This document shows, piece by piece, positions 125 through 46,179 of a stretch of DNA of 46,179 nt; within the stretch, counting starts at the first letter, position 1, and every line of letters begins with the position of its first letter. Both the position numbers and the translations under genes were made by a program. Where the stretch lies: positions 1 through 46,179 of IMG/VR virus record IMGVR_UViG_3300031329_000009; one strand, written 5' to 3'. The notes beneath the pieces are model-generated. The model did no database searches. It saw only the letters and a program-made list of their open reading frames with translations, and was not told where the DNA came from. Source of the DNA: a virus.

Positions 125-139
125 GGTGGATTTCCTTGC

Positions 140-391
140 TTAGATGCCAGCCTCAGCGGTGCGCCAAATGTCATCAATCGCCGTAATCTTGCCGTTGGCC
201 GCATCCAGCGCTTCAACGTGATCGGACAGTATCACCCCCAGATCGCCCAACGTTTCAGCCTGCCGATCCGGCACCGCGACCGGGGTGCGCAATTCGGTTG
301 GCAGGTCCGGCAGCACGTTGCGGTATTCAATCGTTGCTGGACCGCAGGATGCGATTGAGCAGCACGCGAAAATCATCAGGCAAGGGCGCAT
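140..391 (-). CDS. Rz1: Rz1-like outer-membrane spanin lipoprotein
   Basis: 83 aa. The N-terminus MRPCLMIFACCSIASCG holds a lipoprotein signal with lipobox I-A-S-C at residues 13-16, so the mature protein would be acylated at Cys16 and anchored in the outer membrane. After it comes a stretch with several prolines (residues 27-42), as in Rz1 proteins. The start lies inside the end of the Rz gene in another frame (overlap 327-391), the classical overlapping Rz/Rz1 arrangement. Its role is to pair with Rz across the periplasm and fuse inner and outer membranes in the last step of lysis. It sits directly after endolysin and Rz. Call rests on lipobox, length and overlap; no sequence search was possible. 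Confidence 0.82.
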   Translation of the reverse strand: MRPCLMIFACCSIASCGPATIEYRNVLPDLPTELRTPVAVPDRQAETLGDLGVILSDHVEALDAANGKITAIDDIWRTAEAGI

Positions 392-647
392 CGAAGTCTC
401 CTTTGCGAAAGCTGTCTTTTACCCGCTCATATTGGGCGGCCCTGGCGCGCTGGCGGGCCACCTCGGATTGGGCCACGGTGGCAGCAAGCCGGGCCTGCGC
501 GCGGGCATCCTCTAGCGCCGCCGCAGAGCGCGTCAAGCGGGCGTTGTCGTCGCGTAGGTTGCCGATGGTGCTGGACTGCCACCACAGCCCCCCAGCAAGC
601 GCCAGGAACGCCGCGAGGATGCCTCCAGCCAGATAGGCGCGGATCAC
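327..647 (-). CDS. Rz: Rz-like inner-membrane spanin
   Basis: 106 aa. Residues 3-23 form one N-terminal transmembrane helix rich in Ala, Gly, Leu and Trp. Residues 25-75 are Ala-, Arg- and Glu-rich with the heptad character of a periplasmic coiled coil (several Gln/Arg/Ala repeats). The last 30 residues are mixed. This is the layout of the i-spanin Rz. Its start overlaps the endolysin stop by four bases (ATGA), and its 3' end encodes the start of Rz1 in another frame. Family knowledge: Rz and Rz1 form a spanning complex that disrupts the outer membrane after the cell wall is cut. Confidence 0.82.
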   Translation of the reverse strand: MIRAYLAGGILAAFLALAGGLWWQSSTIGNLRDDNARLTRSAAALEDARAQARLAATVAQSEVARQRARAAQYERVKDSFRKGDFDAPLPDDFRVLLNRILRSSND

Positions 648-1177
648 GTCAGCCCCACCATGCAGAGCCGCGTTTCATTAGCCCGGCGATTGACCAGCCC
701 GCGCACAATTCTGCCTCCGGATTTATTCCACCAGCCGAGCGCTGCGCAGCCGCCCGCGATGTCGCCAGCGTTCAGCCGCCGAGTTGCCGTTGATTTGCCA
801 ATGCCATAGATCCCAGCGTTGTATGCCAGCGACACATAGGCCGCGTCACGCTCTGGCGTCAGGCGCAAATCCCGTGTCTCCCGCGTAAAGTATCCATGCA
901 GCCCGTCCCGAAACTGCCCGAGCCCGCGCTCCAGCATGGCCGAGCATTGCGCATCGGTGTATGTGTCGCCCTGCCCTACGCCACGCGTCTCGCCATAGCA
1001 GACAGTCCACACAGCAGGGCTGGCGATGGTGTCGAGATAGGCGGTGTTTTTCTTGCCCTCCCATTTTGCCACCAACGGCACAAGGACACGCATGGTCGCC
1101 GCCTCTGTGGTGTTTGCAATCGGCGCGGGAGGCGCAGCGGCACAGACAAAGATCGCGCATAGGAATGACTTAATCAT
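644..1177 (-). CDS. Endolysin, GH24 lysozyme with export signal
   Basis: 177 aa. The N-terminus MIKSFLCAIFVCAAAPPAP is a signal or signal-anchor segment. The lysozyme domain begins near residue 30. It shows K-W-E-G with the catalytic Glu, then Y-L-D with Glu-x8-Asp spacing as in R21/P1-type phage lysozymes, then V-W-T-V-C-Y-G-E-T. Between the Asp and the WTVCYG block there are three more residues than in R21. A downstream S-L-A-Y-N-A-G motif is typical of the family. It cleaves murein in the periplasm. The start at 1177 is chosen because it overlaps the holin stop as ATGA; a longer frame to 1249 would run back through the holin gene. Export by a signal means the holin may time release or activation rather than form large holes. 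Confidence 0.9.
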   Translation of the reverse strand: MIKSFLCAIFVCAAAPPAPIANTTEAATMRVLVPLVAKWEGKKNTAYLDTIASPAVWTVCYGETRGVGQGDTYTDAQCSAMLERGLGQFRDGLHGYFTRETRDLRLTPERDAAYVSLAYNAGIYGIGKSTATRRLNAGDIAGGCAALGWWNKSGGRIVRGLVNRRANETRLCMVGLT

Positions 1178-1383
1178 CGGGCGATTCCCTGCGATACAAT
1201 CCGTCCCGCGATGCCTGCGATAATCAGGCCAAGGCCGATTGCCAGCCACATGTGCGGGTTGGTGTCCCGACCGGTGGAAAGGTAGATCGCATCGGGCGCC
1301 ATTATCGCCGCGATGCCGCAGTAATTAGCCCACATCGAATAGGATTTAAGCGCCACCGTCTTTGCGTCTGGTATCAGTTTCAT
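1174..1383 (-). CDS. Holin, DUF7940-like
   Basis: 69 aa. It starts MKLIPDAKTVALKSYSMWA, then has two hydrophobic stretches (about residues 18-34 and 46-63) separated by a short polar turn (S-T-G-R-D-T-N-P). This size and topology, plus the MKL-x-P-D-A-K opening, match the small holins annotated as DUF7940 in phages of alphaproteobacteria (from memory). It would insert in the inner membrane and trigger lysis. It is coupled to the endolysin by ATGA and starts four bases after the stop of the preceding membrane protein. A frame to 1482 exists but would overlap that gene heavily. Confidence 0.75.
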   Translation of the reverse strand: MKLIPDAKTVALKSYSMWANYCGIAAIMAPDAIYLSTGRDTNPHMWLAIGLGLIIAGIAGRIVSQGIAR

Positions 1384-1387
1384 TTTG

Positions 1388-1726
1388 TCATTCCGCTCCG
1401 TTGCTACGGCCAAAAGTGTTCCCGCGCAGGTAGCGCAAGATTTCAGATACAGACGCTTCAGTGCGCGCTGAGATGTCTTCAATGCCTGTTAGCCGCTGAT
1501 CAATGCGCGCAGTAGATGAGCGCAGATTGTTGATTTCTTCCGTGTTGCTTTTGATTGCCCCACGATCCTCAACCTGCCGGTCCGACAAGGCCTTTATGCC
1601 TGCCTTTGCGTCGGTCACTTGCGTTCCGATCCAAACGCCGCCGGTTAAGAAGCCGACTAGAATAACCCACGCAAGCGATTTGGGCAGCGTAATGCCGCGC
1701 TCGATATTTTCAATCATCTGTGTCAT
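1388..1726 (-). CDS. Membrane-anchored coiled-coil protein of the lysis cassette
   Basis: 112 aa. A short cytoplasmic start (MTQMIENIERG) is followed by one transmembrane helix at about residues 18-35 (L-A-W-V-I-L-V-G-F-L-T-G-G-V). A long polar region of about 75 residues follows, with repeated Asp, Arg, Ser and Glu that look like a coiled coil. The start at 1726 overlaps the stop of the upstream gene as ATGA. This layout recalls XhlA-like or holin-associated proteins, but I cannot assign a family. Its position just before the holin suggests a lysis or antiholin role (inference). Confidence 0.6.
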   Translation of the reverse strand: MTQMIENIERGITLPKSLAWVILVGFLTGGVWIGTQVTDAKAGIKALSDRQVEDRGAIKSNTEEINNLRSSTARIDQRLTGIEDISARTEASVSEILRYLRGNTFGRSNGAE

Positions 1727-2001
1727 TTGCCTTTCACTTTTCGCAGCGTCTTTTCCGCGTTTTCGATTTCGCGTTGCCATTCCGCCGCGCAGTGATCCGG
1801 TTGCCAAAAAAACATCGCGTTGATAATTCTCCGCGCTCGTAGCCAGCCCGTGTTTGTCTCAATGTGCGACCTTGCGCTTAATGTCTGGAATGTTGAGCCG
1901 CCGGGGAGTGAACCGTTAATCGCGCGGCTCACCAGCCCGACGAACATCTCACCGACGCGGCAAGCGATATAAAGAGGGCGGGGCATACGTATCACGGCCA
2001 T
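1723..2001 (-). CDS. Conserved small phage protein, unknown function
   Basis: 92 aa. No domain recognised. It has two short hydrophobic patches (around residues 10-25), a central S-L-P-G-G-S-T-F-Q-T-L-S-A-R segment, and a basic/aromatic C-terminal part with R-A-R-R-I-I-N-A-M-F-F-W-Q-P-D-H-C, then a charged tail. The start overlaps the DUF4376 gene by 10 bases; an alternative ATG lies at 1986. It sits between the fibre module and the lysis genes in the same coupled operon, so either role is possible. Confidence 0.55.
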   Translation of the reverse strand: MAVIRMPRPLYIACRVGEMFVGLVSRAINGSLPGGSTFQTLSARSHIETNTGWLRARRIINAMFFWQPDHCAAEWQREIENAEKTLRKVKGK

Positions 2002-2519
2002 CCGCTTTCAATATCCACAGCCGCCAATTCCGTTTCATTGGTCGCCGCTTCAATCTGCGCGGATAGCGTGGCCTCATTCGCAAAACACGCCTGAATGTGC
2101 GCCTCGATAGCGTCTGCAGCCGCGATGATTGTTGCCGCGTTGAGCGTTGAGAATACACCCGGCCCAGACTTCCACGCGCCAATTCCATAGGCTGGATCAG
2201 CCGCCGCCTTGACAAATGCCGCCGTTATTTTCCCTTGCGTTGTTCTGTCCGTCGCAAGGGGATTGCCGCCTAGAGTGGTGCCGCCTTCCTCCGCTTGCCA
2301 GCGGCGTGTGGCGAGTGCTGCAACCTTGTCCCTCCGCTTTTCGCGTATAGGGTAATCATCAAGGACAACCCAGACATGGCCGCGCCATTGGGCCACTTGA
2401 TTTCCGGTTAGTGCAGGTGGATCGTGCGGGACTTCGTGGCGGTGACGTCCATCTTTATGGCCGACCTCACGGCTTTCGCCCGTCCATACCCCGCTTTTGT
2501 CTGTCGCATATACCTGCAT
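1992..2519 (-). CDS. DUF4376 tail-fibre-associated protein, copy A
   Basis: 175 aa. The C-terminal half (about residues 75-170) is a DUF4376-type domain: E-E-G-G-T-T-L-G-G-N-P-L-A-T-D-R, then K-I-T-A-A, then G-P-G-V-F-S-T-L and an Ala/Ile-rich helix with Q-A-C-F. DUF4376 proteins occur next to tail fibres and are taken to help fibre assembly or attachment. The N-terminal half differs and is rich in His, Trp and Lys. It follows the seven-repeat fibre with a one-base overlap. A close paralogue lies at 5172-5678 behind the other fibre, so the two fibre cassettes share this partner. Confidence 0.75.
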   Translation of the reverse strand: MQVYATDKSGVWTGESREVGHKDGRHRHEVPHDPPALTGNQVAQWRGHVWVVLDDYPIREKRRDKVAALATRRWQAEEGGTTLGGNPLATDRTTQGKITAAFVKAAADPAYGIGAWKSGPGVFSTLNAATIIAAADAIEAHIQACFANEATLSAQIEAATNETELAAVDIESGWP

Positions 2520-4024
2520 TATATTTCCTCCGCTTTGACGGCATATTTAGCGTCTAAAACAGGAGGGAACTCGTTTGGTATTTCTATTTTTGTCTCGTCT
2601 GCGTTGATTATTACTGTCAGTTTATTACCTCCAGAATGAGCCACTGCTAATAAGTCACCGTCAGGCGAGAACGCCGCGCCTCTTCCTGTCCCAGATAGTG
2701 TTGGGGTTCCACTTACAACGCTCCAATCGGAAGTGTCCAAGATTGTCAGGTTATTACCGCCAACATGAGCCACTGCTAATAAGTCACCGTCAGGCGAGAA
2801 CGCCGCGCCTAATCCTGTGCTAGATAGTGTTGGGGTTCCACTTACAACGCTCCAATCTGAAGTGTCCAAGATTGTCAGGTTATTACCGCCAACATGAGCC
2901 ACTGCTAATAAGTCACCGTCAGGCGAGAACGCCGCGCCTACTCCTGTCCCAGATAGTGTTGGGGTTCCACTTACAACGCTCCAATCGGAAGTGTCCAAGA
3001 TTGTCAGGTTATTCCCGCCAACATGAGCCACTGCTAATAAGTCACCGTCAGGCGAGAACGCCGCGCCGTATCCTGTGCTAGATAGTGTTGGGGTTCCACT
3101 TACAACGCTCCAATCGGAAGTGTCCAAGATTGTCAGGTTATTACCGCCAACATGAGCCACTGCTAATAAGTCACCGTCAGGCGAGAACGCCGCGCCTCTT
3201 CCTGCGTCAGATAGTGTTGGTGTTCCACTTAAAACGCTCCAATCTGAAGTGTCCAAGATTGTCAGGTTATTCCCTCCAAAATGAGCCACTGCTAATAAGT
3301 CACCGTCAGGCGAGAACGCCGCGCCGTTTCCTGTCCCAGATAGTGTTGGGGTTCCACTTACAACGCTCCAATCTGAAGTGTCCAAGATTGTCAGGTTATT
3401 ACCGCCAACATGAGCCACTGCTAATAAGTCACCGTCAGGCGAGAACGCCGCGCCGTATCCTGTGCTAGATAGTGTTGGGGTTCCACTTACAACATCTGAA
3501 AAGGAACTAGGTCTCCAATTCGGAAACGCAGCCGCCAATTCTGGATAGCTAGTTGTTTCATAAATAAGCCCGTCTAGGTCCAGATAGCCTAGCCTGTCCT
3601 GTGACGCGGGGTGTATTTCGATAGTTCCGATGGGGGTGGCTACATCCTCCGCCGCCGCAGTCACAAACACCACCGCCGACCCCGACAGGCTCAACAGGCT
3701 CCCCGTGCTACTCTCGCCAAGCCCCCGCGTTAGTGTCGTGCCGGACGCCGTATAAACGCCCGTGCCGATCTCCCACGCGGTCCCGTCCTCTATTGCGTAG
3801 CGCACGGTATCTCCGTCAGACACGCCCGCAGCGGCTGCGGATTGCAGGCCAGCCCCCGTGAACACAAGCGTAATGGTTCCGGTGCCAGTGGTCGCTGTCG
3901 TGGCGGTCGCGGTGCGTAGGTCTTGGATACCACCACCACCGCCCGAGGGCAATTCAGAAACGGGCGCCTTATACAGCGTCCCGCCCCTCTCAATCATTAA
4001 AAGATCGGTTGATGTAACAGCCAT
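2519..4024 (-). CDS. Tail fibre with seven-bladed beta-propeller-like repeats
   Basis: 501 aa. Residues 1-30 are an attachment-like start ([18 protein letters not shown]) followed by a Gly run. Residues 35-178 are Thr/Ala/Gly-rich structural sequence. Residues 179-479 are seven perfect-length repeats of 43 aa, each with [35 protein letters not shown]. The A-F-S-P-D-G-x-L-L-A-V core is that of WD40/YVTN-type beta strands, and seven units would close a propeller. The last unit is slightly degenerate (N-K-L-T-V-I). Receptor binding is likely from position and architecture. Differences between units concentrate at a few residues, chiefly the T-G-x-G position (Y, N, R, Y, V, L, R). Confidence 0.8.
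2588..3490 (-). repeat. Seven tandem 129-bp coding repeats
   Basis: The same conserved box starts at 2641, 2770, 2899, 3028, 3157, 3286 and 3415, exactly 129 bases apart, which is 43 codons per unit. Units are nearly identical at the nucleotide level, including third positions, so the array was expanded or homogenised recently. Variation sits mainly at the codons around T-G-x-G and at one residue before G-G-N-N (Val, Phe or Ser). Recombination could change copy number in frame. Confidence 0.97.
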
Positions 4025-4025
4025 T

Positions 4026-4604
4026 TTACGGGGCCGATGTCAGATTGGAGATGGAGAACGATAGTTCCTGCGTTGATAGCACAATCGGGTTATTGTTCGC
4101 GGTCCCTGCCGTGGTAGCCGCTGCGTGAGATGCCGCAAGCAAGTCATCAAGATCAACTGCGCCCGTGACTGCGATATGTCCCGCCTTAGTGAATTGCGCG
4201 GGAAGCATCAGACCCGCGTTGGTCCCGGTGGCCGCTGGTAGGGTTGCATTAGTGCCTGTCGATGAAGTGACGATGCCTTGTGTGGCGCTGGCGGTGTAAC
4301 CAAGGCTTGCCCCGCCAACAGTGACATCTAACCCCTCAGCCTCAGCCACTTTTGTAAAGTCCGATCCGCGCCAAACATAAATTGCCCAGCCGCTCTCTAC
4401 TGTTGAATCTGCGGATGCATCAACGACGAACACGCGGTCGCCAGTAGATAGCCCCAAGAGAGCATTGCGCTCCGCTATGTCTGCCACGTCATATTCAGAT
4501 GCGCCGATATTGGCCTGCACATATGCGAGAATATCAGACGACAACACAGAATAAACTGTGCTGCTGCGCTCAACGATGAATTGGTCTGTACCTTGTAGTG
4601 CCAT
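4026..4604 (-). CDS. Tail fibre/adhesin-like protein with shared N-terminal anchor motif
   Basis: 192 aa. The start [20 protein letters not shown] resembles the opening of the seven-repeat fibre ([13 protein letters not shown]), suggesting a common tail-docking segment. Middle: D-I-A-E-R-N-A-L[15 protein letters not shown] and W-A-I-Y-V-W-R-G, typical of short modules seen in phage fibres. The C-terminal part is Thr/Ala/Asn-rich. It begins two bases after the stop of a 71-aa protein and ends one base before the seven-repeat fibre. The second, partial copy at 45638-46179 differs by six residues. Probably a structural fibre or linker; no enzymatic motif seen. Confidence 0.6.
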
Positions 4605-4606
4605 GA

Positions 4607-4822
4607 TTAGGCTCCTGTAAGTGATGATATATCGTAGCGAATTTCTGTGCCGACGAGCTTGAAGCCGGGCCCAACCGATGCACCTGCACCAGCCGAACCG
4701 GGAGCGCCAACCACGGATGCAACCGCCGTTGTGCCTCCTCGTGCGATGGTCGCGAGGGTGCCTTGCGTCTGCCCGAACCACTCATGGACAACGCCCGGCG
4801 GCTGGAACCATTCGACGGTCAT
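4607..4822 (-). CDS. Small Gly/Ala-rich tail-region protein
   Basis: 71 aa, starting MTVEWFQPPGVVHEWFGQTQ. The middle is Gly-, Ala- and Ser-rich and the end is G-T-E-I-R-Y-D-I-S-S-L-T-G-A. No domain recognised. The start overlaps the upstream stop as ATGA. Embedded between tail-fibre genes, so a structural or assembly role is inferred. Confidence 0.55.
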   Translation of the reverse strand: MTVEWFQPPGVVHEWFGQTQGTLATIARGGTTAVASVVGAPGSAGAGASVGPGFKLVGTEIRYDISSLTGA

Positions 4823-5172
4823 ACAGTGACCCTCTCTGCCAACTTGATCGCCAAAGGCAGGGGGTAGTCCACGACGCCGGATGTGTAGACGACCTTTGCA
4901 TCCGTGATGTAGGTCTGTGCAGCGAGTGCTGCCGTCTGGGTGGGTGTAAGGTTGAACGACCAATAGGCGCGCACGTTACCAGCGGCCTCCACGAAAGAAG
5001 GTGTGATGCTCGCAACGGTTGCGGCTGATGCAGGTGGCACCCTAGAGCCATTGATCGCCACCTTAACATCGCAAGTTACTGTTTCAGTACCATCATAAGC
5101 AGGGTCAGACCGCAGGCCGAAAGATACGGTTTCCCCGCGAATATGCTCAATTATTGCAACCGCGTTGCTCAT
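4819..5172 (-). CDS. Tail-region protein, beta-rich, unknown function
   Basis: 117 aa. Begins M-S-N-A-V-A-I-I-E-H-I-R-G-E-T-V-S-F-G-L, then alternating short hydrophobic and polar segments typical of beta strands, with an aromatic motif R-A-Y-W-S-F-N-L-T. The look is that of a small immunoglobulin-like or BppU-N-like baseplate domain, but this is only an impression. It is coupled on both sides (one-base overlap with DUF4376 copy B, ATGA with the 71-aa gene). Confidence 0.5.
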   Translation of the reverse strand: MSNAVAIIEHIRGETVSFGLRSDPAYDGTETVTCDVKVAINGSRVPPASAATVASITPSFVEAAGNVRAYWSFNLTPTQTAALAAQTYITDAKVVYTSGVVDYPLPLAIKLAERVTV

Positions 5173-5678
5173 TACCAGCCCCCCTCGATGTCAACAGCCG
5201 CCAATTCCTCTAGGTCCGCCGCGTCTGTGATCTCACCCGATAGGCTGGCCTCGTTGTCGAAACACGCCTGAACATGAGCCTCGATTGCATTGGCCGCTGC
5301 GATGATGCTTGCCGCCGTGAGCGTTGAGAATACCCCCGGCCCGGTTTTCCATGCAGTGATCTGAAAGCCGTCATCTGCACTTGCCTTGACGTATGCCGCT
5401 GTGATTTTGGACTGAGTGATCCGGTCTGTTGCCAGTGGGTTGCCTCCCAGAGTGGTGCCGCCCTCTTCTGCCTCATAGCGACGTTGCGCGAGTTCCTGCA
5501 GGCGCATCTCTTTGCCCGTTGCGAGGTCGGGGTATTTGGTTGGGGTCACAATAGATGCCCCAATAGTCGCAAGGTATGCCGCCGACGGAAACTCGCCGCC
5601 GTATTGCACGTTAGGGTTTTGCAACTTGAATTGCTCTGATGTAACCCGTGAACCATCTGTGAGTTCAATCATACGCAT
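5172..5678 (-). CDS. DUF4376 tail-fibre-associated protein, copy B
   Basis: 168 aa. Residues 1-65 contain a P-S-A-A-Y-L-A-T-I-G segment and are unlike copy A. Residues 66-165 match the DUF4376 domain of the protein at 1992-2519 almost position for position: E-E-G-G-T-T-L-G-G-N-P-L-A-T-D-R, K-I-T-A-A, G-P-G-V-F-S-T-L, I-I-A-A-A, Q-A-C-F. Both end in V-D-I-E-(S/G)-G-W. It lies directly downstream of the second repeat fibre with a one-base overlap (TAATG). A paired role with that fibre is inferred. Confidence 0.75.
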   Translation of the reverse strand: MRMIELTDGSRVTSEQFKLQNPNVQYGGEFPSAAYLATIGASIVTPTKYPDLATGKEMRLQELAQRRYEAEEGGTTLGGNPLATDRITQSKITAAYVKASADDGFQITAWKTGPGVFSTLTAASIIAAANAIEAHVQACFDNEASLSGEITDAADLEELAAVDIEGGW

Positions 5679-7309
5679 TATACAATCCCTCCCAGTATTG
5701 AGATTACTTGGTAAGAAGCCCCACTATCCGCAGTGACGATTGTAACCGCTGTTTTCTCATATACCTTTAGTGGTATTGTTACTGATTCCATTGTTCCGGG
5801 GAAAACTAACGTTGGAATGTCTGCGGAAAAGTATTGGTGAACACTGTCACTACTTGACCCTACTACGTACATCTTTGAGCCATCAGATTTAAAAAACAGC
5901 CCATTTGGACTAGGGCCCTCCGAATTAACACTAAATGAAACACTATCGTAAGACGCTGAACTAATAACCCAAGGAGTTGAGAGGGAGTATTGGTATACCC
6001 TGTCGTTACTTGACCCTACTACATACATCTTTGTTCCATCAGGCTTAAAGAACAACCCCTGTGGCCTAGAGTCCTGCGAAAAAACAGCAAGCTCAACACT
6101 ATCGTAAGACGCTGAACTAATAACCCAAGGAGTTGAGAGGGAGTACTGGTAGACCCTATAACTCCCTCGATTAACTACATACATCTTTGTACCGTCGGGC
6201 TTGAAGAACAACCCAACTGGAGTGGTCGCCTCCCAAGTAACACTAAAATAATCGTCGTAAGACGCTGAACTAACAACCCAAGCAGTTGATAAAGAATATT
6301 GGGAGACTCTGCCTCTTTCTTGCCCTATTACGTACATTTCTGTACCGTCGGGCTTGAAGAACAACCCAGTTATATCGTTATCTAGAAACTCAACACTAAA
6401 AGAGACACTATCGTAAGACGCTGAACTAATAACCCAAGGAGTTGAGAGGGAGTACTGGTAGACTACGGCGTTACTTGTCCCTATTACGTACATCTTTGTG
6501 CCATCGGACTTGAAGAACAAAGATGATGGATTAGCTTCCTGCGAGCGAACACTAAATGAAAGGTTTTCATAAAACGCAGAGGCTAGGCTATAACCCGTCA
6601 ATGCCTGATAGTCGATAACCAGATCAACCTTGGCAACTCCCACAGGGTTATCAAATGAGTAAGTTACCGTCGCTGCGTTTGCCGCTGATGTAATTACCTT
6701 GTTTGACCCAAAGTCAATTGATTGCGTTGCACCTGTTGTTGCTACTGTCGAAAGTCTAGGGGACAACTCATCAATAGCCTGCGAGGTACGCAACGGAGTC
6801 ATGCCGTTGGAGTTATCCGTGCCCGCCTCAGCTTGGGCTTGACTAGCCTTGCCGATGAAACCGATTAGAACCCAATTCGTTTCATCTGCACTAGGGTCTG
6901 TTGTCTCACCCGTGTGCGTTAGGATCGCGCGATAGGTGCCAAAGTCCACACCCGAGATTGCGTTGTCCAAGGCCGTGTAGGACGCCTCAGAAACCCAAGC
7001 TGCCGCGTTGGTAGTGACAATAGCCGCTGCTGCTGATGAAGCCGCGAGGACAGCTTGTGCCGTCGCTTCGTCTTTCTGGGCAGTCGCAAGGGTGACTTGA
7101 TCTGCGGCCAGCACGACCTCCGCCTGTGCATCAATAACCGCTTGTCCAGCGTTCGTGACCTGCAATGCGAACCAAGAAACCGACGTTGACAGCTCGCCTC
7201 GAAACGTCTTTTCCCACACAAGAAACGGATCAGTTAAAGCCGAAAACGTAGACGGAGCCGACCGCGAGGGGATTACAGACGGGGCGGCGGTGAATGTTGG
7301 GTCTGTCAT
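5678..7309 (-). CDS. Large tail fibre with five 52-aa propeller-like repeats
   Basis: 543 aa. Residues 30-105 are Ala/Gln/Val-rich helical sequence typical of trimeric fibre shafts. Residues 105-152 hold a W-V-S-E-A-S-Y and N-W-V-L-I-G module common in phage fibres. Residues about 250-510 are five repeats of 52 aa, each with G-L-F-F-K-P-D-G-T-K-M-Y-V-V-G, then V-Y-Q-Y-S-L-S-T-P-W-V-I-S-S-A-S-Y-D. The F-K-P-D-G-x-K-M-Y-V core is YVTN-like, as in beta-propellers. The repeat region is visibly richer in A+T than its neighbours, which hints at acquired DNA. Likely a second receptor-binding protein. The start at 7309 overlaps the upstream stop by one base. Confidence 0.78.
   Translation of the reverse strand: MTDPTFTAAPSVIPSRSAPSTFSALTDPFLVWEKTFRGELSTSVSWFALQVTNAGQAVIDAQAEVVLAADQVTLATAQKDEATAQAVLAASSAAAAIVTTNAAAWVSEASYTALDNAISGVDFGTYRAILTHTGETTDPSADETNWVLIGFIGKASQAQAEAGTDNSNGMTPLRTSQAIDELSPRLSTVATTGATQSIDFGSNKVITSAANAATVTYSFDNPVGVAKVDLVIDYQALTGYSLASAFYENLSFSVRSQEANPSSLFFKSDGTKMYVIGTSNAVVYQYSLSTPWVISSASYDSVSFSVEFLDNDITGLFFKPDGTEMYVIGQERGRVSQYSLSTAWVVSSASYDDYFSVTWEATTPVGLFFKPDGTKMYVVNRGSYRVYQYSLSTPWVISSASYDSVELAVFSQDSRPQGLFFKPDGTKMYVVGSSNDRVYQYSLSTPWVISSASYDSVSFSVNSEGPSPNGLFFKSDGSKMYVVGSSSDSVHQYFSADIPTLVFPGTMESVTIPLKVYEKTAVTIVTADSGASYQVISILGGIV
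5783..6562 (-). repeat. Five tandem 156-bp coding repeats
   Basis: Copies of a conserved block (cactatcgtaagacgctga and neighbours) recur about every 156 bases, for example at 5941 and 6097, giving 52 codons per unit. Conservation is strong at the strand-forming parts; the segment between S-V and G-L-F-F is freely variable in sequence and slightly in composition. Confidence 0.85.
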
Positions 7310-41524: not shown

Positions 41525-41737
41525 GGCGCAACGCGTCGGTGTGGTCTGGATTACTGCCCAATGACCGCCGGTGCTCAGAAATAGCTCGACCATGTTACCC
41601 GCGTCATCCAAGCCCCATGAATGCAACGCAAGGCCATGCTCAACCTTTAGGTATGCGGCGAGGTGGTCGCGCTTGTAGCACTCAGCGGCGGCAGGACACG
41701 CCAAAAGGACCGCCAGAGCGGTTGCAATCATTTTCAT
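41420..41737 (-). CDS. Small secreted protein, complete copy
   Basis: 105 aa. Signal MKMIATALAVLLACPAAA, then E-C-Y-K-R-D-H-L-A-A-Y-L, G-N-M-V-E-L-F, and a Pro/Arg-rich end. Resembles small periplasmic proteins with two Cys. Last gene of the lysis operon; 3' end meets the plus operon. See the partial diverged copy at 1-124. Confidence 0.6.
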   Translation of the reverse strand: MKMIATALAVLLACPAAAECYKRDHLAAYLKVEHGLALHSWGLDDAGNMVELFLSTGGHWAVIQTTPTRCASVAMPHKARGRLSDPVPQNKINRPGPRMSPGEVG

Positions 41738-43613: not shown

Positions 43614-44131
43614 CCGCTTTCAATATCCACAGCCGCCAATTCCGTTTCATTGGTCGCCGCTTCAATCTGCGCGGATAGCGTGGCCTCATTCGCAAAACAC
43701 GCCTGAATGTGCGCCTCGATAGCGTCTGCAGCCGCGATGATTGTTGCCGCGTTGAGCGTTGAGAATACACCCGGCCCAGACTTCCACGCGCCAATTCCAT
43801 AGGCTGGATCAGCCGCCGCCTTGACAAATGCCGCCGTTATTTTCCCTTGCGTTGTTCTGTCCGTCGCAAGGGGATTGCCGCCTAGAGTGGTGCCGCCTTC
43901 CTCCGCTTGCCAGCGGCGTGTGGCGAGTGCTGCAACCTTGTCCCTCCGCTTTTCGCGTATAGGGTAATCATCAAGGACAACCCAGACATGGCCGCGCCAT
44001 TGGGCCACTTGATTTCCGGTTAGTGCAGGTGGATCGTGCGGGACTTCGTGGCGGTGACGTCCATCTTTATGGCCGACCTCACGGCTTTCGCCCGTCCATA
44101 CCCCGCTTTTGTCTGTCGCATATACCTGCAT
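43604..44131 (-). CDS. DUF4376 protein A, second copy
   Basis: Identical translation to the copy at 1992-2519. Confidence 0.75.
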   Translation of the reverse strand: MQVYATDKSGVWTGESREVGHKDGRHRHEVPHDPPALTGNQVAQWRGHVWVVLDDYPIREKRRDKVAALATRRWQAEEGGTTLGGNPLATDRTTQGKITAAFVKAAADPAYGIGAWKSGPGVFSTLNAATIIAAADAIEAHIQACFANEATLSAQIEAATNETELAAVDIESGWP

Positions 44132-45636
44132 TATATTTCCTCCGCTTTGACGGCATATTTAGCGTCTAAAACAGGAGGGAACTCGTTTGGTATTTCTATT
44201 TTTGTCTCGTCTGCGTTGATTATTACTGTCAGTTTATTACCTCCAGAATGAGCCACTGCTAATAAGTCACCGTCAGGCGAGAACGCCGCGCCTCTTCCTG
44301 TCCCAGATAGTGTTGGGGTTCCACTTACAACGCTCCAATCGGAAGTGTCCAAGATTGTCAGGTTATTACCGCCAACATGAGCCACTGCTAATAAGTCACC
44401 GTCAGGCGAGAACGCCGCGCCTAATCCTGTGCTAGATAGTGTTGGGGTTCCACTTACAACGCTCCAATCTGAAGTGTCCAAGATTGTCAGGTTATTACCG
44501 CCAACATGAGCCACTGCTAATAAGTCACCGTCAGGCGAGAACGCCGCGCCTACTCCTGTCCCAGATAGTGTTGGGGTTCCACTTACAACGCTCCAATCGG
44601 AAGTGTCCAAGATTGTCAGGTTATTCCCGCCAACATGAGCCACTGCTAATAAGTCACCGTCAGGCGAGAACGCCGCGCCGTATCCTGTGCTAGATAGTGT
44701 TGGGGTTCCACTTACAACGCTCCAATCGGAAGTGTCCAAGATTGTCAGGTTATTACCGCCAACATGAGCCACTGCTAATAAGTCACCGTCAGGCGAGAAC
44801 GCCGCGCCTCTTCCTGCGTCAGATAGTGTTGGTGTTCCACTTAAAACGCTCCAATCTGAAGTGTCCAAGATTGTCAGGTTATTCCCTCCAAAATGAGCCA
44901 CTGCTAATAAGTCACCGTCAGGCGAGAACGCCGCGCCGTTTCCTGTCCCAGATAGTGTTGGGGTTCCACTTACAACGCTCCAATCTGAAGTGTCCAAGAT
45001 TGTCAGGTTATTACCGCCAACATGAGCCACTGCTAATAAGTCACCGTCAGGCGAGAACGCCGCGCCGTATCCTGTGCTAGATAGTGTTGGGGTTCCACTT
45101 ACAACATCTGAAAAGGAACTAGGTCTCCAATTCGGAAACGCAGCCGCCAATTCTGGATAGCTAGTTGTTTCATAAATAAGCCCGTCTAGGTCCAGATAGC
45201 CTAGCCTGTCCTGTGACGCGGGGTGTATTTCGATAGTTCCGATGGGGGTGGCTACATCCTCCGCCGCCGCAGTCACAAACACCACCGCCGACCCCGACAG
45301 GCTCAACAGGCTCCCCGTGCTACTCTCGCCAAGCCCCCGCGTTAGTGTCGTGCCGGACGCCGTATAAACGCCCGTGCCGATCTCCCACGCGGTCCCGTCC
45401 TCTATTGCGTAGCGCACGGTATCTCCGTCAGACACGCCCGCAGCGGCTGCGGATTGCAGGCCAGCCCCCGTGAACACAAGCGTAATGGTTCCGGTGCCAG
45501 TGGTCGCTGTCGTGGCGGTCGCGGTGCGTAGGTCTTGGATACCACCACCACCGCCCGAGGGCAATTCAGAAACGGGCGCCTTATACAGCGTCCCGCCCCT
45601 CTCAATCATTAAAAGATCAGTTGATGTAACAGCCAT
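44131..45636 (-). CDS. Seven-repeat fibre, second copy
   Basis: Identical translation to the copy at 2519-4024, including order and count of the seven repeats. One silent change near the start (45620 versus 4008). Confidence 0.8.
44200..45102 (-). repeat. Seven tandem 129-bp repeats, second copy
   Basis: Same seven units in the same order as 2588-3490. Confidence 0.97.
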
Positions 45637-45637
45637 T

Positions 45638-46179
45638 TTACGGGGCCGATGTCAGATTGGAAATAGAGAACGATAGTTCCTGCGTTGATAGCACAATCGG
45701 GTTATTGTTCGCGGTCCCTGCCGTGGTAGCCGCTGCGTGAGATGCCGCGAGCAAGTCATCAAGATCAACTGCATCCGTGACCGCGATATGTCCTGCCTTA
45801 GTGAATTGCGCGGGAAGCATCAGGCCCGCGTTGGTCCCGGTGGCCGCTGGTAGGGTTGCATTAGTGCCTGTCGATGAAGTGACGATGCCTTGTGTGGCGC
45901 TGGCGGTGTAACCAAGGCTTGCCCCGCCAACAGTGACATCCAGCCCCTCAGCCTCAGCCACTTTTGTAAATGCCGATCCGCGCCAAACATAAATTGCCCA
46001 GCCGCTCTCTACTGTTGAATCTGCGGATGCATCGACGACGAACACGCGGTCGCCAGTAGATAGCCCCGAGAGAGCATTGCGCGCCGCAATGTCTGCCACG
46101 TCATATTCAGATGTGCCGATATTGGTTTGCACATATGCGAGAATATCAGACGACAAAACAGAATAAACTGTGCTGCTGC
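45638..46179 (-). CDS. Fibre/adhesin-like protein, second copy, 5' end cut off
   Basis: Lacks its first residues because the window ends. Differs from the copy at 4026-4604 by six residues: two Ala to Thr, Glu to Ala, Leu to Ser, Asp to Ala and Gly to Asp. The change in divergence starts abruptly near its 3' end. Confidence 0.6.

Follow-up and report, generated by a model that had tools for sequence, protein, structure and literature searches.

The protein encoded by ORF 2519-4024 (minus strand, 501 aa) of the phage record IMGVR_UViG_3300031329_000009 probably carries, as its C-terminal half, a WD40 ring whose diversified top face contacts the host, with receptor binding read from the position of the gene in the fibre slot. 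The window, which here means the whole 46,179-bp record, holds within this gene seven head-to-tail units of exactly 129 bp (43 codons). Our case draws on the computed fold, the array itself, variation focused on a few codons, homogenisation of the blades, signs of recombination among them and a fibre-like genomic context; for the product we infer exposure on the virion surface, receptor binding and an effect on host range.

The fibre gene and its array

The record is from a tailed phage and includes genes for terminase, portal, capsid and tape measure. Its own start is read again at its end, positions 126-4006 being repeated exactly with a shift of 41,612. The genome is therefore likely to be circular, ~41.6 kb long and pieced together from two or more strain variants. 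Because the record overlaps its own start in this way, the array copy at 44131-45636 has no independent confirmatory value. When the record ends are compared (1-125 and 4007-4567 against 41613-41737 and 45619-46179), divergence is confined to the outer edges, with no difference in 126-4006, a pattern that would arise if a segment common to two strain variants had served as their junction. The features of the region are as follows.

2519..4024, minus strand: fibre gene, 501 aa, with N-terminal anchor, adaptor domain, linker, predicted seven-bladed WD40 propeller and short C-terminal tail
3929..4024, minus strand: N-terminal anchor, aa 1-32; nearly the same start in L092 (5390-5995)
3650..3919, minus strand: adaptor domain, ~aa 36-125; confident in the full-length model (block pLDDT ~73-93 from aa 41)
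3365..3493, minus strand: blade unit 1, aa 178-220; residues 10/11/13/29 = S T Y V
3236..3364, minus strand: blade unit 2; residues 10/11/13/29 = G T N F
3107..3235, minus strand: blade unit 3; residues 10/11/13/29 = D A R V
2978..3106, minus strand: blade unit 4; residues 10/11/13/29 = S T Y V
2849..2977, minus strand: blade unit 5; residues 10/11/13/29 = G T V V
2720..2848, minus strand: blade unit 6; residues 10/11/13/29 = S T L V
2591..2719, minus strand: blade unit 7; residues 10/11/13/29 = G T R S; last ~8 codons diverged
1992..2519, minus strand: tail-fibre accessory gene (DUF4376), next downstream of the propeller fibre gene
4026..4781, minus strand: fibre-related neighbour with a similar anchor and a weak match to a tail-fibre profile
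5172..5678, minus strand: DUF4376 paralogue, next downstream of the second fibre gene
5678..7309, minus strand: second fibre gene (543 aa) with five propeller-like units, divergent and 51-52 aa long; variable residues at equivalent blade positions
44131..45636, minus strand: second copy of the fibre gene, 100% identical; record-end overlap, no second gene

The propeller fibre gene sits downstream of the tape measure gene and of another fibre gene. Weak tail-fibre profile matches fall in this slot, and DUF4376 genes adjoin both fibre genes. The adaptor domain had matches in 135 stretches of phage contigs. In the relative L092 the same slot encodes a nearly identical start of 30 residues with an unrelated distal domain behind it, and a DUF4376-like gene comes next; this layout agrees with what is expected of an exchangeable host-binding domain. 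The gene thus has the location of a tail-fibre module, an anchor-like N-terminus and an exchangeable distal domain, and its product would be a tail-fibre or tail-tip protein, presumably anchored in the virion and exposed on its surface. Of ~11 relative loci sampled, 8 or 9 had at least one tested neighbour with a head, tail, fibre, connector or lysis profile. The array of the second fibre gene has a G+C content of 43.6%, against 56.3% for the record. Amino-acid differences between the DUF4376 gene at 5172-5678 and its counterpart in the contig L089 (12197-12703) are clustered in the C-terminal half, the neighbouring genes being otherwise identical, as if that half had recombined.

The sequence-only reading of this DNA claimed seven near-identical 129-bp units, and these were found at 2591-3493 (aa 178-478), except that unit 7 matches the others over its first ~35 codons and has diverged over its last 8. 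From unit 1 to unit 7, codon 10 specifies S, G, D, S, G, S, G; codon 11 T, T, A, T, T, T, T; codon 13 Y, N, R, Y, V, L, R, i.e., five residues in seven copies; and codon 29, which precedes G-G-N, V, F, V, V, V, V, S. Codons 13 and 29 had been named correctly in the earlier reading, which missed codons 10 and 11. The remaining differences are one change at codon 2, a few silent ones at codons 5, 30, 31 and 40, and one at codon 33 in unit 7. When units 1-6 and codons 1-35 of unit 7 are compared, 15 of the 129 nucleotide positions vary, six of them within codons 10 and 13; for such clustering in any two codons, P=0.0007. The minimum number of changes in the array is 17, so that a selection signal within it reflects few events.

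Fold of the repeat region and its variable sites

It had been proposed from the sequence that the units close a seven-unit WD40/YVTN-like propeller, and a structure prediction of the repeat region was called for. An AlphaFold2 model of aa 160-501, computed from an alignment with 51 homologous propeller segments from phage contigs, is a propeller (pLDDT 89, pTM 0.86) and bears out the proposal. The homologous rows had been trimmed to about seven blades, and the query itself has seven units. The full-length model was poor outside the adaptor domain (pLDDT 57), because its alignment had no propeller relatives. Against WD40 rings the Z range was 36-40, and each unit has three repeated strands plus joining strands; PkwA 5yzv (Z 40.3) and WRAP 2ymu (Z 39.7) were among the best matches, with rmsd 1.7-2.0 Å over 283-287 residues. 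The top match in a sequence search of the PDB was 1l0q, the YVTN propeller of an archaeal surface-layer protein, yet 1l0q ranks structurally below several WD40 rings and, unlike the phage fibre, is a PKD-containing protein of the cell surface. Blade 7 could be closed by a short strand that lies immediately before unit 1 and at its start (model 16-19). The Pfam WD40 score was 40.2 bits against a cut-off of 27, no single stretch being significant alone. Of the WD40 hallmarks, a DHSW tetrad and GH/WD dipeptides, the unit sequences have H28 and SDW and lack the GH dipeptide. WD40 repeats of ~40-60 residues form four-stranded blades in a closed ring, usually of seven; the units and the model agree with this, and the model supports a closed seven-bladed WD40 propeller as the C-terminal half of the product.

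In WD40 proteins the residues R1-2, R1 and D-1 are top-face contacts, corresponding in G-beta to residues 16, 18 and 34 (Wu et al., PMC3419727). In the fungal protein HET-E, repeat codons 7, 9, 25 and 27 are under diversifying selection and lie on the top face, within loop d-a and turn b-c (Paoletti et al., PMC1805685). A spacing of 2 and 16 is common to unit residues 11, 13 and 29, to R1-2, R1 and D-1, and to HET-E codons 7, 9 and 25. The register to HET-E was fixed on the FSPDG motif, using the HET-E consensus. In the model, DSSP assigns strand a from unit residue 11 and strand b to residue 29, so that these two residues would lie at the same end of the blade. Residues 11, 13 and 29 would correspond to R1-2, R1 and D-1 on one face of the ring, with residue 10 beside them. 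Whether the varied residues share one propeller face had been put forward for testing in the sequence-only reading; this placement of 11, 13 and 29, made from strand order and published hotspot spacing, agrees with a shared face.

Sites 11, 13, 29 and 31 were preset for a test of variability. They ranked as the most variable sites both in the second fibre gene (P=0.004) and among the relatives compared first (P=0.0016), and also in the window array, where P=0.004 is not independent because the variable codons of that array were seen before the literature sites were applied. Within the window units, pN/pS was 1.64 at these four sites and 0.35 over the rest. Related propellers were encoded in 176 phage stretches in the scan (IMG/VR loci L093-L170), mostly with ~6-8, 12-15 or 23 blades per ORF, i.e., one, two or three rings. 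Cultured phages that carry such propellers include Salicola phage CGphi29 and Pseudomonas phage ZRG1. Among 45 testable arrays, nearly all from phage contigs and with 79 later-fetched loci providing the cleanest test, the preset sites were significantly variable in 43 at P<0.05 and in 38 at P<0.01. Residue 13 was among the three most variable positions in 36 of these arrays, residue 29 in 35 and residue 11 in 28. At 11, 13 and 29, pN/pS in the 45 arrays was 1.19; the loop 22-23 on the opposite face had 0.67, and all codons outside 11, 13, 29 and 31 together had 0.39. The earlier proposal of focused variation had been staked on relatives varying more at these codons than elsewhere, and they did, at the same positions.

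As a cellular control we used nine WD40 arrays, taken from plasmids and from one contig of a bacterial genome and located by a motif anchor. These had the same ranking of variable positions, with pN/pS 1.12, and hotspot variation specific to phages was rejected. Excess amino-acid variation at R1-2, R1 and D-1, of the kind seen in the fungal HNWD proteins, was likewise present both in the phage arrays and in the cellular ones. The site pattern is thus a general WD40 property that does not identify a ligand, and it need not mean receptor selection. Values of pN/pS of ~1.1-1.2 over strongly diverged loops are compatible with relaxed constraint.

Copying and probable exchange of blades

The window units have a mutual nucleotide identity of 93%, against 56% to the blades of the nearest relative found, L093, and in a tree they form one clade with support 1.0. 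Together these results indicate amplification or homogenisation after the split from the L093 lineage, and it is in this broader form that the recent amplification suggested earlier is upheld. Published thresholds for amplified propellers are an internal blade identity of at least 0.7 (PMC5587647) or >60% (PMC9218822); the window array, with a core identity of 0.89 and a mean nucleotide identity of 0.93, is highly repetitive and recently amplified, and its median blade-core identity (0.89) is the highest among the 45 arrays. Seven site pairs among units 1-6 violate the four-gamete condition, pointing to exchange within the array, with repeated mutation at so few sites as the alternative. Shuffling or conversion of blades is likelier than a change in their number, since gain or loss of a single blade would disturb ring closure and relatives mostly keep to the whole-ring blade counts given above.

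In L094 (IMGVR_UViG_3300009134_000007), near-identical WD40 blades (7 and 2x7) lie inside two adjoining tail genes, at 1444-2958 and 3137-6676, which resemble tail tubular proteins. The blades of both genes intermingle in the tree, and the identity between the genes is 0.84 versus 0.82 within the longer one, suggesting exchange of blades between the two.

The array is known from a single metagenomic record. A repeat-region scan for a near relative carrying it, with patterns such as TILDTSDW, gave one distant relative only, L085, and an exact 29-mer of the blade core had no match in the scan. The array is one case of a common phage propeller family. Closely similar six-unit propeller proteins with a common C-terminal region are encoded in L083 (7700-9130), a Marichromatium contig, and in the virus record L096 (3899-5311), and the bacterial copy is probably that of a prophage.

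Proposed function and its rivals

In the mechanism that we propose, the first ~30 residues and the phage-common adaptor domain would dock the protein to the tail. The C-terminal half would form the seven-bladed WD40 ring, closed by the strand preceding unit 1, from an array recently produced or homogenised by copying and converting one 43-aa blade. One face of the ring would show the partner-contact residues (11, 13 and 29, with 10 adjacent) seven times, the blades differing there while the framework is nearly fixed. The ring would most likely be the distal, host-contacting part of the fibre, its varied face binding a bacterial surface molecule, and point changes at the contact residues together with conversion or shuffling of blades would re-tune that face at constant blade number.

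The main competing reading, which we consider unlikely although it deserves real weight, is that the propeller serves the fibre as structure or spacer, its blades having been copied recently and the varied exposed, least constrained sites reflecting neutral drift without receptor selection. Cellular WD40 arrays with the same profile, the pN/pS of only ~1.1-1.2 overall at the sites and the few changes in the window array all accord with drift. Drift does not account well for the a-b loop (22-23) of the opposite face, which is equally exposed but much less variable (pN/pS ~0.6-0.7), nor for the coincidence of the varied sites with exactly the three partner-contact residues known from structures and mutagenesis (PMC3419727); the variable hotspots that Hu et al. 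had already noted at contact sites of highly repetitive WD40 proteins generally (PMC5587647) also tell against it.

Two further explanations concern the origin of the array and of its variation. The number or order of units might be an assembly artefact of a metagenomic repeat that was collapsed, expanded or chimeric: the record ends stitch at least two strain variants, near-identical 129-bp repeats are difficult for short reads, and L089, a contig of the same population, ends short of the fibre gene. We regard this as very improbable, because exact repeats within the array reach 118 bp at most, so that unit number and every step are resolvable with 127-mers or 150-bp reads; moreover, the reading frame is open through the whole array, diagnostic bases distinguish the units, and seven is a normal blade number, relatives having 6-8 or about double. 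Least credible of all is diversification of the variable codons by a retroelement (DGR) or another targeted mutator. Variation limited to few codons, among them codon 13 with its five different residues, might suggest such a device, but no reverse transcriptase (RVT_1) match was present in the record, no template repeat was found among the tandem arrays, and cellular WD40 arrays vary at these sites too.

The reading that we favour, of a ring that contacts the host through a diversified top face, has partial counterparts in known systems. The WRAP propeller of Nostoc punctiforme Npun_R6612 (2YMU) and the highly repetitive prokaryotic WD40 proteins (PMC6805158, PMC5587647, PMC9218822) are likewise seven-bladed, with near-identical, recently amplified blades and variable hotspots. 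The proteins discussed in those studies are cellular, whereas the phage protein lies behind a phage adaptor in a fibre slot, and the phage units also differ silently and show signs of blade recombination. The fungal HNWD/HET-E receptors (PMC1805685, PMC12222747) share high internal conservation, repeat exchange and equally spaced variable sites; unlike the phage array, which comes from one record, they are cytoplasmic NLR sensors with unit numbers polymorphic in populations. This likeness would imply no common origin of the arrays. The phage proteins phi11 gp45, PRD1 P2 and phiKZ gp131C probably belong to propeller families other than that of ORF 2519-4024. They too are propellers in host-recognition or peripheral tail proteins, with five blades in gp45 and six- and seven-bladed forms in P2 and gp131C, but near-identical blades are not described for them in PMC6115969. 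Phage proteins annotated as WD40/YVTN repeat-like (the wD40 repeat protein of MW202701; uncultured Caudovirales phage entries in BFVD) have homologous or same-fold blades in single or double rings, but are labelled WD40 or hypothetical without a known role, and their blades are less alike than those of the window array. Near-identical amplified propellers are known from a survey that took in viruses (PMC9218822). Propeller receptor-binding proteins of phages and diversified fungal top faces are known as well; in the literature searched, which covered few subscription journals, we found neither near-identical blades nor hypervariable WD40 rings in phage fibres, nor the combination of these properties in a phage fibre slot.

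More tentatively, and with greater doubt than attaches to the single protein, the window array may represent a widespread class of phage tail proteins with a repertoire-like WD40 host-binding face, in which tail genes would copy and exchange blades, both internally and with one another, so that the frame stays uniform while three to four contact residues per blade diversify. Specificity would then be re-tuned by reshuffling, as in fungal NLR sensors, without a retroelement.

If the ring binds the host, phages and fungal immune receptors would share one route to a recognition surface, i.e., blade amplification, a homogenised framework and three varied contact positions per blade, and for phages this would be a retroelement-free path to diversity. 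Unit residues 11, 13 and 29 are short, predictable sites that can be read from sequence across many phage propellers, and phage proteins now annotated as 'WD40 repeat' may be fibres and not regulators. In sum, the results suggest that the array arose by recent amplification and is a module, open to re-mixing, that binds to the bacterial surface.
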